DNA of 64,000 nt from Cohnella herbarum (GTDB lineage: Bacteria > Bacillota > Bacilli > Paenibacillales > Paenibacillaceae), in assembly GCF_012849095.1 (NCBI RefSeq), contig NZ_CP051680.1:186001-250000 (forward strand), written 5' to 3'. This document shows positions 32,979-62,914 of this stretch, one piece after another. A model generated the notes under the pieces. The model searched no databases, was not told where the DNA came from, and saw only the letters and a program-made list of their open reading frames with translations. Within the stretch, counting starts at the first letter, position 1, and each line of letters begins with the position of its first letter. Position numbers and translations under genes: made by a program.

Positions 32979-33065
32979 GCGGTCGTGGCGGAATTGGCAG
33001 ACGCGCTAGATTCAGGTTCTAGTGGTGTAACAGCCGTGGAGGTTCGAGTCCTCTCGACCGCACCA
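32979..33065 (+). tRNA. tRNA-Leu (anticodon CAG)
   Basis: Acceptor GCGGTCG pairs with CGACCGC at the 3' end. A D-arm with AATTGGCAGACGC, an anticodon stem CTAGA/TCTAG with loop TTCAGGT (anticodon CAG), a long variable arm (class II), the T-arm GGTTCGAGTCC, discriminator A and an encoded CCA are all visible. It decodes CTG. Its 3' 57 bases form the island attachment site, so the functional tRNA is retained after integration. Confidence 0.97.
33009..33065 (+). repeat. attL: 57-bp tRNA-Leu 3' segment
   Basis: It begins GATTCAGGTTCTAG in the anticodon region and ends with the CCA of the intact tRNA. It is identical over 57 bases to the copy at 62858-62914. Confidence 0.95.
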
Positions 33066-33067
33066 CC

Positions 33068-34183
33068 CTAAGAATGTACGAGCTCTTGAACTTGTCCTTG
33101 TGACGGTTCAGGAGCTTTTTGTTTGATTGGGACTTGTAACGTGTTGCTCATGACCTGTGCCGACGAAACCTTAGAGTTATAATCCAGGTGAGCATAAATG
33201 TTAGCCGTTGTGGAGTAATGGCTATGCCCTAACCACTCTTGAATTTCTTTCAGGCTGACCCCATTGACAAGCAACAAGCTTGCACAACTGTGGCGAAGCT
33301 CATGGAAACGAATATGTTTTAGCTCATGCTTCTGGAGAACGATCGGGAAATGTTGTGTGATATATCCCGGTTTGATGCGGTCTCCCAGTTTGTTCACGTA
33401 GATGTATTCTTCATATTTGTAGCAATAGGAATCTTTGAACAAGGCACGATTTTGTTGTTGCTCTTCCCACAGTCGTTTCAATAGTTCAAAAAAGGCAGGT
33501 ACGAGCGGCAGAGTGCGATAACTCGATTTATTCTTTGCACGATCCTTCTCTACGATGATCTGTTTCCCCTCATACGATATGGAAGTGACGGTGTGACGAA
33601 TGGAAATGGTCTGATGCTGAAAACTGATAGCGCTCCACTTCAATCCGACAATTTCGCTCCGTCTGAGGCCATAGAATGCTGCTAAATACACGCCCAATTC
33701 CAATGGATCATCTTTCACGACTTCAAATAGCTGATTAAGTTCTTCGATATTGTAGTAACTTCCGTTAAACTGTTGCTTCTTAGGCCGATCAACCTTATCT
33801 GCCGGATTGGAAGGAATCATGTCCATCCGAAAGGCGTGTTGCAGGGCCTGACGAATATTGGCATGATACTTCTGAGCAGTGTGGGCAGTAATCTTGTACT
33901 TGTTCAGGACAAACAGATAGAAGTCTTGCAGATGCTTCGCTTGAAGTTCTTCCAGCAAAATCCCCTTGTCCTTGAAATAAGGAACAATTTTGCCCTTCAC
34001 ATTAAAACAATAAGCCGCATGAGTAGTCACTTCAACCTGATACTTCATCATGCCAAGCCATGCCAACATGAAATCTGCGAACAGAATGCCGGCTGGACTT
34101 TCTTCATCAGGTGCTGTTTCATCCTCAACTGGTAGCGCTAGTTCCTCTTCAATGGACTCAGAAGGAATTTCAAAGTTTAGCAG
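33068..34183 (-). CDS. int: Tyrosine recombinase (integrase)
   Basis: Its stop lies 3 bp from the tRNA CCA. The core-binding domain is visible (GILFADFMLAWLGMM and KYHANIRQALQHAF). The catalytic set is complete: Arg in YGLRRSEIVGLKW, Lys in the VEKDRAKNKSSYRTLPL region, HELRHS, GHSHYS and the nucleophile Tyr in TTANIYAHLD. The first ATG (34069) falls inside the core-binding domain, and the frame is open for 40 codons further up to about 34189 with no ATG, GTG or TTG. A CTG at 34183 (LLNFEIPSESIEEEL) is the best candidate start. An N-terminal arm-binding domain seems to be missing. It should catalyse integration at the tRNA. Confidence 0.9.
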   Translation of the reverse strand: MLNFEIPSESIEEELALPVEDETAPDEESPAGILFADFMLAWLGMMKYQVEVTTHAAYCFNVKGKIVPYFKDKGILLEELQAKHLQDFYLFVLNKYKITAHTAQKYHANIRQALQHAFRMDMIPSNPADKVDRPKKQQFNGSYYNIEELNQLFEVVKDDPLELGVYLAAFYGLRRSEIVGLKWSAISFQHQTISIRHTVTSISYEGKQIIVEKDRAKNKSSYRTLPLVPAFFELLKRLWEEQQQNRALFKDSYCYKYEEYIYVNKLGDRIKPGYITQHFPIVLQKHELKHIRFHELRHSCASLLLVNGVSLKEIQEWLGHSHYSTTANIYAHLDYNSKVSSAQVMSNTLQVPIKQKAPEPSQGQVQELVHS

Positions 34184-34242
34184 CCCTAGCTACCTACCAT
34201 CGACACTTTAATTATAACAACGGAATCAAAAAGGATTCAAAG

Positions 34243-34503
34243 CTATAAAGTGTCATGAACGCTTGTGCCGAGGGCTAAGTTTTCACGTAAATAATGGATG
34301 ATGCTCAGCTTCGGGATTTTGTAAAAGCGACCAATGCGAAAGTGAGCGATACGTCCTGATTGGAGTAATTTGCGGCCCGTTTTGGTACTGATGCCGCCTA
34401 ACATGGTACACATTTGTTCGACTATTACGATATCGGGCATGATCTGAAAAAGTAGCAGGTAAGGGTCAGTTTCAACAATGGGTTGATTTTCATCATCCGG
34501 CAT
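34243..34503 (-). CDS. Excisionase-like helix-turn-helix protein
   Basis: The product has 86 residues; AAGGAG lies 8 bases before the ATG at 34503. The segment EQMCTMLGGISTKTGRKLLQSGRIAHFRIGRFYKIPK has the layout of a winged-helix/MerR-type excisionase (HTH_17), in which the recognition helix is followed by an R-x-G-R-x-Y-K-I-P wing. It lies just upstream of int in the same direction and so is the probable recombination directionality factor. Confidence 0.75.
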   Translation of the reverse strand: MPDDENQPIVETDPYLLLFQIMPDIVIVEQMCTMLGGISTKTGRKLLQSGRIAHFRIGRFYKIPKLSIIHYLRENLALGTSVHDTL

Positions 34504-60427: not shown

Positions 60428-60527
60428 TCCGTATGACGGACGGCGGTTCCATCGTCGTAAGCGGCGGACCGATCGGGTCGCCGTCTGTCTTCCCTCCGTT
60501 ATCCCCTTCCGTCAGTCATACTTCGCT

Positions 60528-60831
60528 GTGAAAATGGAGGCATGCGGCGAGATCAAGCGCAGTACGTTGCAAGACCGGCTAACCTCGCGCGGCTACAGTT
60601 CACGCCAGATGCGAATGTACAGAGCCCAGGGCGTTGCTGCTCGGCGCTTCCAAAAGAGACACCGTAACGCACTCTGGCAATCGGATATTAAGACGGGGCC
60701 GCACCTACCTATCGGTACGAATGGGGGAGAAGAAGCCGGTATACCTCGTGCTCTTCATCGACGACACGACGCGCTTTGTCGTCCACGGCGCCTTCTATGA
60801 TTCGCTCGAGCAATCAATCGTGGCCGATTTC
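60528..60831 (+). pseudogene. DDE integrase-type transposase fragment
   Basis: Pieces [20 protein letters not shown] and [20 protein letters not shown] (first frame), then [20 protein letters not shown] and [13 protein letters not shown] (second frame), match the start of the rve-type catalytic core of bacterial transposases, with the first Asp in QSDIK and the second in FIDDTTR. A frameshift occurs near 60720. The rest is replaced by another gene from 60832. Confidence 0.75.
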
Positions 60832-62585
60832 GGAAGGGCGTCTATTGCTGACATGACCGCTTTTATGTTTCAGCCACAGCGGATAGTTGCGAATAATGAA
60901 ACGATGTTCTTTGAAGCAGATATTGAGGAACACGCCAAGAAATTACGAGAGATATTCCCATTGGTATTAGGGGTAGTCGACGCTGAAACCTTGATAAAAC
61001 AGCATCGCTTACAAGAGGTTAGACGATTAATTGAACGGAAACAGCGACAACTCGATGCCTTGAAAATAAACATTGAGAGTTTCTCGGGTGAGGTCAAAGG
61101 AAGATACATAGCCGCGGCACAGCACGGTCTGGTTCCTTCACTGAAATCCGATGATATGAATACTCAAGTTTTGTTCGAGCGACTTAAAGATATCGTCGCT
61201 ATTTGGAAGAAAGATCCGACATACAGGGATCCGGATGGTCACCATTACAACACAGAAAGACTTTCATGGTTACGTGAACGCGAAGCCATACTGAATTCTG
61301 AAATCACAACATTCAGGGTGAGAGTTACTCAAATAAGAGAGCTTTCCCTGGCAAGGGCAACTTCGGAAATGAACATCTCTAGAAAACGGAATCGGCTTTC
61401 TTCAACTTCTTGGCTAGTTGATCGACTCAGTTCCGATCATGTATGCCCTCTTTGTGGAAACAACAGCGACACTTCTTCCAAAGAGCTTAAGAAACTAATT
61501 GATTCTACTGCAAAAGTTGAAGCACAATGGAAAGCTGTTGAGCTCGTTCCACCAATGTTGGATGCCGAAGAGGTAGATATTAAGAAACAAATCGCAGCCA
61601 AAGAGTCTGAGCTTCGTCAGGTGAGATCTGAACGTGAGTACATACAGGAAGAAACTGAAGAAATGCAGGCTTCCAGAGAGCAACGCGCAATGTTTGTAGG
61701 TAGAACTGCGGAGTTCATTAATCTTCATGAGTCGCTTACAGATGAAGGGGGATTTGCAATTGAGATTGCTGCGTTGAAGGATGAGGAGGCACAGTTATTA
61801 AAGGAAGTTGACTTTGACACGTTTGCGCAAAGGAAAGAAACTGCTTTGTTTAAATTCTCAAGGTTTGCAGGTCATTACGGAGAAATTTTGGAATTAGAGA
61901 CGGGTGACGACCTCATTCAACTTGATACAAATAAGTTAACTATTCGTGTCATTGACGAAAAGGGAGGCACTGCGTGGCTTCGTGAAATTGGCAGCGGTGC
62001 TAACTGGCTCGGATATCATGTTACAACTTTGTTGGCACTACATGAACTTTTTTTTTCCAAGATATCCCGTATGTTCCGAGCTTATTTGTTATTGATCAGC
62101 CGAGCCAAACTCACTTTCCTGATAATACAGAAGAGGATTCAGAGAATGAAGAATTACAGGCAGTAAATAAAGTCTTCCAGGCACTATCTTCAGGGATCAA
62201 GAGAACAAAGGGAACATTACAGGTCATTGTTAGTGAGCATGTAGGTCACAGTGCTGTAGACGGTCTTGAGAATGTCCACCTTGTAGAAAGATGGCGCAGA
62301 GGTCGTAAGATGATACCGTGGCATTGGAGAAAGGAAATGGATGTGAAAACGATCGGCAAAAATGTACAATATGCAGCTGAGGACTTATTCGAATCACACA
62401 TAGAGCCTGCTTGTATGGAAGCCATTGGAGACGTTCTTTGCCAGATCAGTTTTTCAAATGCTTCATTTAGTGCAGACGGAGTCGTATTTAATACTTCTGC
62501 GGAATCCTTTGACAAAGGGACGATCAAGCTTGCCGGACTGATTGATTTTGACTTGAATGTAAATTTCGTATTCCCTGAAGGTTGA
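60832..62585 (+). pseudogene. DUF3732-type SMC-like ATPase, 5'-truncated and frameshifted
   Basis: The remaining protein begins [20 protein letters not shown] and continues [20 protein letters not shown], a conserved part of DUF3732 ATPases. Coiled coil flanks a zinc-hook-like [10 protein letters not shown]. The signature segment is [20 protein letters not shown]. At a run of nine T near 62045-62055 the frame shifts, and the C-terminus continues in another frame ([17 protein letters not shown] with Walker B Asp, then [10 protein letters not shown]). The N-terminal Walker A part is missing and replaced by transposase DNA. Such ATPases are associated with predicted conflict/defence operons. AT-richer than the cassette before it. 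Confidence 0.78.
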
Positions 62586-62857
62586 TTACTTCACTTTTTT
62601 CAAAAAAATAAAAGTTATGTAGCTTTGCTCCGCTAAATTTGTCGATGGTAGTGGAGCAGGGCTGATGCGAGTGTCGTTCTCTCCGAGTTCTCTCAAACGT
62701 GCAATTTTGGTCGCTTTTTGTTGAATTCCCGAGACGCCTTGCGGCACTAGGGAAAGGCGATGTGAAACACCGGAGTCCCTTGTTTTTATAGGCTTTTCGC
62801 GGTTTTTTGGTTCCCCTAAAGGGACATGTTTTCCGCTTAGTTCCCTTTAGCGTGCGC

Positions 62858-62914
62858 GATTCAGGTTCTAGTGGTGTAACAGCCGTGGAGGTTCGAGTCC
62901 TCTCGACCGCACCA
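62858..62914 (+). repeat. attR: 57-bp tRNA-Leu 3' segment
   Basis: An exact copy of 33009-33065. The 5' part of a tRNA is absent (upstream reads TTTAGCGTGC), so it is an integration scar, not a tRNA gene. The stretch 62586-62857 before it contains no recognisable gene. Confidence 0.95.

Follow-up and report, generated by a model that had tools for sequence, protein, structure and literature searches.

A probable stranded relic of a tRNA-Leu-splitting integrative element, with part of a foreign carbohydrate operon, in Cohnella herbarum

Introduction

ICEBs1 and phage HP1 integrate in tRNA-Leu genes; their attP contains the 3′ part of the target, which is thereby rebuilt. Here we analyse 64,000 nucleotides from the genome of Cohnella herbarum (RefSeq assembly GCF_012849095.1, contig NZ_CP051680.1, positions 186,001 to 250,000 of the forward strand; hereafter the window), in which an island with an integrase and a carbohydrate-use cassette adjoins a tRNA-Leu(CAG) gene, together with the relatives of that integrase in the order Paenibacillales—a lineage that, unlike ICEBs1 and HP1, does not rebuild its target. 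Coordinates are those of the window; genomes are cited by G-codes and loci by L-codes, with G000 denoting the host genome (8.52 Mb, two contigs), one of 392 genomes of the order. A first-pass annotation had described the island as a mobile or block-acquired element at 33009..62914 carrying a complete polysaccharide-use cassette.

Integration without rebuilding of the target has been described in actinobacteriophages as tRNA-dependent lysogeny (Guerrero-Bustamante & Hatfull, 2024; PMC10865867). The phages and the relatives studied here have in common a tyrosine integrase, a short core within a tRNA gene and a target left unrebuilt at attL and attR; rebuilding varies among related integrases in both settings (Omega versus Gaia, at tRNA-Leu-CAA, among the phages). 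The elements here differ from the actinophages in belonging to Paenibacillales, in spanning 69–120 kb with no phage gene among eight cargo open reading frames (ORFs) scanned, in carrying the tRNA inside the attachment region, adjoining the integrase, and in spanning three tRNA-Leu isoacceptors (CAG, CAA and UAA).

In the islands of the Islander database (PMC4383910), attP is described as containing a target fragment that restores the target. Like those islands, the elements here have an integrase beside the tRNA gene, a displaced fragment of that gene at the far end and a crossover of the anticodon-centred class; unlike them, this lineage has a core of 7 bp and carries the whole gene, and the window copy is damaged besides. 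The term tRNA-dependent is also mentioned in PMC12429752 and PMC11476347. Our searches of open-licence papers gave no report of whole-tRNA-carrying islands in Paenibacillaceae; among the papers they turned up, the principle was described only in PMC10865867. Homologues in phage and plasmid records (1191 and 230 records) were all <60% identical.

Results

An integrase lineage that splits tRNA-Leu and carries a whole copy

The integrase lineage to which the window's island belongs splits tRNA-Leu at the 7-nt anticodon loop, without rebuilding it, and brings a whole tRNA-Leu between its attachment (att) arms and the integrase; the novelty sits in these relatives' elements rather than in the window island. 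Counted at E ≤ 1e-40, integrase relatives were present in 57 of the 392 genomes, G000 included. Twenty-five of the 29 relative loci that were fetched have a complete tRNA-Leu next to the integrase; none was called at the remaining four, though tRNA-Leu 3′ parts are visible in their sequence. In most CAG relatives, the integrase end opens with a tRNA-Leu 5′ half that closes on TTCAGGT; about 120 bp bearing two AGTTCTCTCC-like sites come next, and a complete tRNA-Leu and the integrase follow. Intact relatives then have an excisionase-like gene beside the integrase.

Far ends, located by a 3′-end pattern search, were found 69–120 kb away in five genomes (G295, G393, G343, G401 and G185), beyond the 40 kb within which a whole-tRNA query had returned no att repeats. 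Each comprises a right arm with a pair of sites spaced by 11 bp, TTCAGGT and a displaced 3′ half without a 5′ half, leaving all five both-ended elements with the short core TTCAGGT and a target rebuilt at neither junction. Four further candidate far ends turned out to be complete tRNAs or other tRNAs, and a candidate on G118 contig 6 had a 3′ half without these arm sites. The window's right arm can be aligned with those of six relatives. In G226 (contig C9, ~34.7–35.2 kb; L331/L326), a right arm, the core and a left arm are followed without a break by a complete tRNA-Leu and the integrase, an arrangement like that of an attP or a tandem junction.

The left-arm pair of sites occurs at 36 places in 28 of the 392 genomes, none of them G000, with two matches in the control (both in G393). 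Thirty of the 36 places were read. In 20 of these a complete tRNA-Leu directly follows the arms (CAG in seven, CAA in 11, UAA in two) and, without exception, the carried isoacceptor is that of the anticodon loop in the core. The core lies upstream of the arms by 78–79 bp in 17 of the 20 loci, 92 bp in two and 100 bp in one, and a tRNA-Leu 5′ half precedes it in all except G226. Eight of the other ten loci have a UAA core 124–125 bp before the arms, with the 3′ half in between; three of these show a complete rebuilt tRNA-Leu(UAA), and in the remaining five the sequence before the core completes no called tRNA. At L340 and L358 (G238) two arm-pair sites stand 167 bp from each other, with a CAA core and no complete tRNA-Leu after the arms.

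The UAA loci with the 3′-half layout form a clade of their own in the integrase tree (7 rows, 100/100), separate from the CAG clade; some members of this sister clade do rebuild their target. In the CAG clade, seven of the nine members other than the window have arms before a complete tRNA. Several arm-bearing genomes hold further complete tRNA-Leu(CAG) genes, and the carried spare is presumably expressed. The eight cargo ORFs scanned in relatives include, for example, MFS, GH1 and ParA/SAF genes.

The window island as a relic of this lineage

The window island is, in our judgement, probably a relic, stranded and mosaic, of an integrative element of Paenibacillales that recombined in the anticodon loop of tRNA-Leu(CAG), its cassette being a partial foreign second version of genes already in the host. 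The features of its two ends are as follows.

32979..33065, + strand: tRNA-Leu(CAG), the single tRNA in the window (ARAGORN); its type is identical in many relatives in the genus, and it sits where the relatives' carried tRNA sits, 3 bp before the integrase stop
33009..33065, + strand: left copy of the 57-bp repeat, with the anticodon-loop core TTCAGGT at 33011–33017
33068..34177, − strand: tyrosine integrase remnant; the first start codon, at 34069, gives 333 aa
34177..34178: deletion junction that removes the integrase start, 177 bp relative to G226 and ~176 bp relative to G295 and G176
34243..34503, − strand: helix-turn-helix (HTH_17) excisionase-like gene, with an NCBIfam ‘excise’ match below cutoff; relatives have a comparable small ORF next to the integrase
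62640..62859 (start approximate), + strand: conserved right att arm, with arm-type sites at 62675 and 62686 (11-bp spacing)
62858..62914, + strand: right copy of the 57-bp repeat, holding the core at 62860–62866 and the target tRNA-Leu's displaced 3′ half
62930..62957, + strand: terminator-like hairpin (by eye); the same stretch follows a whole tRNA-Leu in G028 and G029

The exact 57-bp direct repeat of the tRNA-Leu 3′ end on which the first-pass annotation had based integration at this gene was found at both edges (33009–33065 = 62858–62914), is far beyond chance and corresponds, in its right copy, to tRNA positions 31–87 (blastn). Flanked by a tRNA gene and a displaced tRNA fragment, the element has the form of a tRNA-targeted island. 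The extent first given needs amending at one end: the common sequence of the relatives' two ends is the 7-nt anticodon loop TTCAGGT alone, so that the right end of the element is the TTCAGGT at 62860–62866, not 62914.

The integrase, located 3 bp from the tRNA as annotated and matching PF00589 at 33068–34069 (−), is truncated, with its start and N-terminus lost. By comparison with the integrase of G226 (421 aa, start MVAGHLQEKKG), residues 1–53 are deleted and residues 54–88 untranslated; the integrase ORFs of nine CAG relatives run to 408–457 aa in eight and 365 aa in one. The deleted part is N-terminal of, and extends into, the SAM-like domain (85–180 in the relative); no Pfam domain matches there, and its position would suit an arm-binding domain. 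In the integrase tree the window falls within the CAG clade (10 rows, 100/100) as the clade's longest tip, and seven of the nine CAG relatives have the same 3-bp spacing between tRNA and integrase.

At the left end, neither a tRNA 5′ half nor a left arm precedes the complete tRNA: the arm pair is not in G000, and blastn with the left arm gave no match near the island. Where a putatively active island has an intact integrase and both att sites, this one has an N-terminal deletion and no left arm. With both the left arm and the dead 5′ half missing, and no N-terminus on the integrase, self-excision appears unlikely.

The history that we envisage would have begun with the target tRNA-Leu being cut in the anticodon loop, the element supplying a whole spare tRNA-Leu(CAG). 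Decay would then, by the simplest route, have gone through recombination between the two near-identical tRNA 5′ halves, deleting the left arm and leaving one functional tRNA. Arm loss is seen elsewhere too: at L199 (G118) the left arm has gone and the 5′ half is kept, three bases before the complete tRNA, and this locus is likely an intermediate of left-end decay. A partial carbohydrate operon of high GC and rearranged gene order would, probably later, have entered the low-GC shell with its broken Lamassu gene and insertion sequence (IS) debris.

The insertion site in relatives

An empty tRNA-Leu followed directly by the terminator, which the first-pass annotation had proposed to look for in relatives, is seen in G028 and G029. 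Left-edge alignments to both end exactly at 33065; at the right edge, G028 aligns over 102 columns (84%) to 62958 and G029 over 104 columns (87%) to 62957, each through the whole tRNA 3′ half and ending in the terminator. Neither genome, though, has the window's further right flank; the gene there was not found at this locus in relatives, its strong match being only in G016, elsewhere. The two left-flank genes nearest the phosphoribosyltransferase gene were present in 18 of 19 fetched relative stretches, and the DNA after the tRNA differs among relatives: this tRNA-Leu locus is a hotspot.

In G032 (C1, ~150.2 kb; L097), a fossil of the same integrase adjoins a carried-type tRNA-Leu at a locus matching the window's left flank, with blocks matching 32901–33195 and 33982–34102 joined end to end. 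A second complete and identical tRNA-Leu(CAG) lies beyond the window, 26 kb past the right end (G000:C1:275269–275355), and several genus relatives have at least two tRNA-Leu(CAG) copies with variable DNA in between.

By eye, the integrase 3′ end at 33066–33130 resembles a terminator hairpin for the tRNA. When searched for a tRNA end followed by an integrase tail, 22 of 37 genus genomes yielded 33 hits in all, with two control hits; 21 of the 33, in 15 of the 37 genomes, begin CCGCACCA (a count made by eye, of sites not individually confirmed as tRNA). It may be that the terminator was captured by the element, not left behind as a scar.

The cassette and its resident counterpart

Between the ends lies the following cargo.

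35518..36547, − strand: broken DDE_Tnp_1_4 transposase in two frames
37600..39513, + strand: sensor histidine kinase (HAMP and His_kinase in Pfam)
39515..41212, + strand: response regulator with AraC-type output (Pfam)
41318..43069, + strand: solute-binding protein, weakly matched to a sugar-binding protein in NCBIfam, with no Pfam match
43050..44042, + strand: ATP-binding cassette (ABC) transporter permease A (Pfam)
44073..44960, + strand: ABC permease B (Pfam)
45030..47087, + strand: barrel enzyme, a predicted beta-sandwich plus (alpha/alpha)6-barrel, from a widespread and mostly unnamed family
47653..47816, + strand: group II intron RNA match, RF02001
48688..49728, − strand: IS1182-type transposase, below the family cutoff
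50137..55035, + strand: giant protein 1, with a secretion-signal-like start (by eye), Fn3 repeats, PA14 and a C-terminal esterase-like domain
55390..60354, + strand: giant protein 2, with a secretion-signal-like start (by eye), Fn3 repeats and a conserved, putative glycosidase domain at the C-terminus
60634..62166, + strand: one ORF of 510 aa in which an IS481 scrap is fused to a truncated LmuB (Lamassu defence, DUF3732) remnant

Pfam bore out the sensor kinase, AraC regulator and two permeases named by the first-pass annotation, and the HTH excisionase-like gene likewise stood; the binding protein rests on the weak NCBIfam match. The claim that the cassette is complete failed. A fuller, 11-gene operon is resident in the same chromosome (C1:2.86–2.88 Mb), beside accD-accA-pyk (names by eye), in the order two giants, kinase, regulator, binding protein, two permeases, heparinase-II/III-like lyase, barrel enzyme, DUF2961 and PF00756 esterase, followed by accD, accA and pyk, and Cohnella silvisoli (L106) keeps this order from the second giant onward. 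The island runs from kinase to permeases, then barrel enzyme, intron and IS1182 debris, and the two giants; the lyase, DUF2961 and small esterase genes were not found in it. Eight other loci combine the barrel enzyme with the kinase-to-permease block (G369 and L107 taken as one); seven of them have the lyase and seven DUF2961, and the small esterase was seen in no locus but the resident one and that of C. silvisoli. The domain of giant 2 lies between the permeases and the lyase in G222, and gene order varies in other loci too. The intron RNA match follows the barrel enzyme, at the place taken by the DUF2961 gene in the fuller operon; no intron-encoded protein was seen among the ORFs scanned near 47653–47816.

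Across six concatenated proteins, the island copy is 56–60% identical to those of the resident operon (~59%), C. silvisoli, Paenibacillus glycanilyticus, G350 and G222, which group together apart from it with a support of 100; the resident operon is 81% identical to that of C. silvisoli. The cassette therefore appears, by its sequence, to be a partial foreign second version of sugar-use genes already in the host. The cassette family does stand beside backbone genes, in the resident and C. silvisoli loci at accD-accA-pyk, an arrangement that had been named in advance as telling against acquisition, but the foreign origin of the island version stands. None of 14 further stretches bearing the barrel enzyme showed an integrase of the island's lineage.

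The cassette probably serves to sense an acidic or acylated polysaccharide, take it up and trim it, the target being suggested by the lyase, DUF2961 and esterase partners in the fuller operon (DUF2961 is named GH172 in the literature). The barrel enzyme, called glycosidase-like at first pass, has no Pfam or PDB sequence match; its predicted model (pLDDT 84) shows a beta-sandwich and an (alpha/alpha)6-barrel. It has 1699 scored relatives, mostly unnamed; among 120 listed, a few have PF07470 or PF06662 or the names ‘rhamnogalacturonyl hydrolase YesR’ or ‘family 127’, and many of its loci are in Bacteroidota (best 80 of 128). The model matches BACCELL_00875 (PDB 5no8) over its full length, an enzyme described as a PL27 L-rhamnose-glucuronate lyase (PMC8377490); assignment to PL27 was rejected on the grounds that there is no sequence match and that GH76/epimerase barrels score as high or higher. 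The model thus suggests a fold class alone.

Of the two giant secreted enzymes first proposed, both are Fn3-repeat proteins with secretion-like starts and giant 1 has an esterase-like end (PDB 4q82, phospholipase/carboxylesterase, E 4.9e-22), but the C-terminal domain of giant 2 has no usable PDB match. A profile of 24 sequences of that domain gave as sole, weak PDB match 2kd7, a putative chitobiase domain (positions 69–158, E 0.015); a glycosidase nature is a possible reading. A single-sequence fold of the domain (pLDDT 33.6) was not used, and a discoidin match in giant 2 fell below cutoff. The first 1.6 kb of the two giant genes (50240–51843 and 55382–56982) are 94% identical, which suggests recent conversion or duplication.

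The LmuB remnant covers positions 137–535 of a 611-position profile and is not full-length, and the few adjacent ORFs scanned gave no match to a Lamassu partner. A Lamassu defence gene was probably among the earlier cargo. Elsewhere in the window, next to a Mutator-type transposase, a 30-bp word recurs in six direct copies spaced by 51 bp (28367–28651).

Discussion

The cassette looks acquired, as the first-pass annotation supposed, but its arrival as one block with the island is doubtful because of steps in GC content and IS debris. The idea that it is the element's original cargo, delivered with the integrase, would fit its position between the att ends and the other cargo carried by relatives, and we give it a minority chance. 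GC is 0.43 and 0.46 at the island edges and 0.60–0.62 in the cassette parts, and the integrase and excisionase-like gene, at 0.44, differ from a cassette at ~0.6; the host's own genome lies at 0.47–0.53 in 11 of 12 sampled 20-kb stretches, with the twelfth at 0.38. Steps occur near 37.5, 48.5, 50 and 60.5 kb, with transposase or intron debris close by, and GC at third codon positions (GC3) is 0.77–0.82 in the island sugar genes, whereas two flank genes that were measured have 0.56 and 0.62. An older, low-GC island may instead have received the cassette. No recent capture by IS could be demonstrated, since no other copy of the DDE_Tnp_1_4 transposase and no other full copy of the IS1182-type transposase was found in the host's own genome.

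The reading of the island's ends as a relic faces several points that weigh against it. The five left/right pairings assume the nearest same-orientation ends on one contig; near-identical loci (L200, L201) mean that the 20 loci are not all independent; the last two arm loci, those of G238 with a CAA core, fit neither layout; and within the CAG clade L199 and L221 do not show the full layout, L221 having neither arms nor 5′ half. The remaining integrase frame is open apart from the deletion. The window's left tRNA, moreover, has the genus-common sequence, not the distinct type of the closest integrase relatives, G226 and G401, and recombination between 5′ halves therefore needs an element that carried the common type or a later gene conversion, for which the second identical tRNA-Leu 26 kb past the right end is a possible donor.

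That same genus-common sequence is what an ordinary tRNA island would show, in which the left tRNA is the regenerated target, made of a chromosomal 5′ half and an element 3′ half, and only the integrase end has decayed. Some UAA sister-clade loci rebuild their target in just this way, with arms between tRNA and integrase. The window's integrase, however, belongs to the CAG clade, where seven of nine others have arms before a complete carried tRNA, and its 3-bp spacing is the spacing of carried tRNAs; we regard an ordinary island as unlikely.

A relic remains the reading that we prefer over an island still mobile, or mobilisable and lacking only a helper for transfer, which we think very unlikely. 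The exact 57-bp repeat, the conserved right arm and the excisionase-like gene would suit mobility, but the integrase has lost its start and first 53 codons, with the next 35 residues untranslated, and is the longest tip of its clade, and left-arm sites are missing. The annotation's statement that no transfer genes are visible agrees with Pfam, which gave no relaxase or transfer-gene match among the 21 larger island ORFs scanned. An origin of the cassette through duplication and displacement of the resident operon, with which it shares gene kinds including both giants, is highly improbable at ~59% identity when resident and C. silvisoli copies are 81% identical and group, with P. glycanilyticus, G350 and G222, apart from it (support 100), and with island GC3 of 0.77–0.82 against 0.60–0.73 in the resident genes.

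Two cautions follow for the reading of other genomes: an exact tRNA repeat with an integrase and cargo does not amount to mobility, and a cassette of foreign origin may turn out to be an incomplete second version of something already present in the host. Beyond the window, we put forward, tentatively, that cargo-bearing Paenibacillales elements cut tRNA-Leu and bring a matched whole tRNA-Leu, its terminator overlapping the integrase 3′ end, that stays on when the element decays, replacing or multiplying host genes, the window's tRNA included. If this is true, tRNA-dependent integration would extend from actinophages to large elements of Paenibacillales, and a form of addiction could follow, as loss of the element would remove the only intact tRNA copy at the locus. 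With a sister clade that still partly rebuilds its target, the switch between the two modes would be open to direct comparison, and the lineage would point to a way for mobile elements to replace host tRNA genes, or add to their number, and to make their own loss costly.

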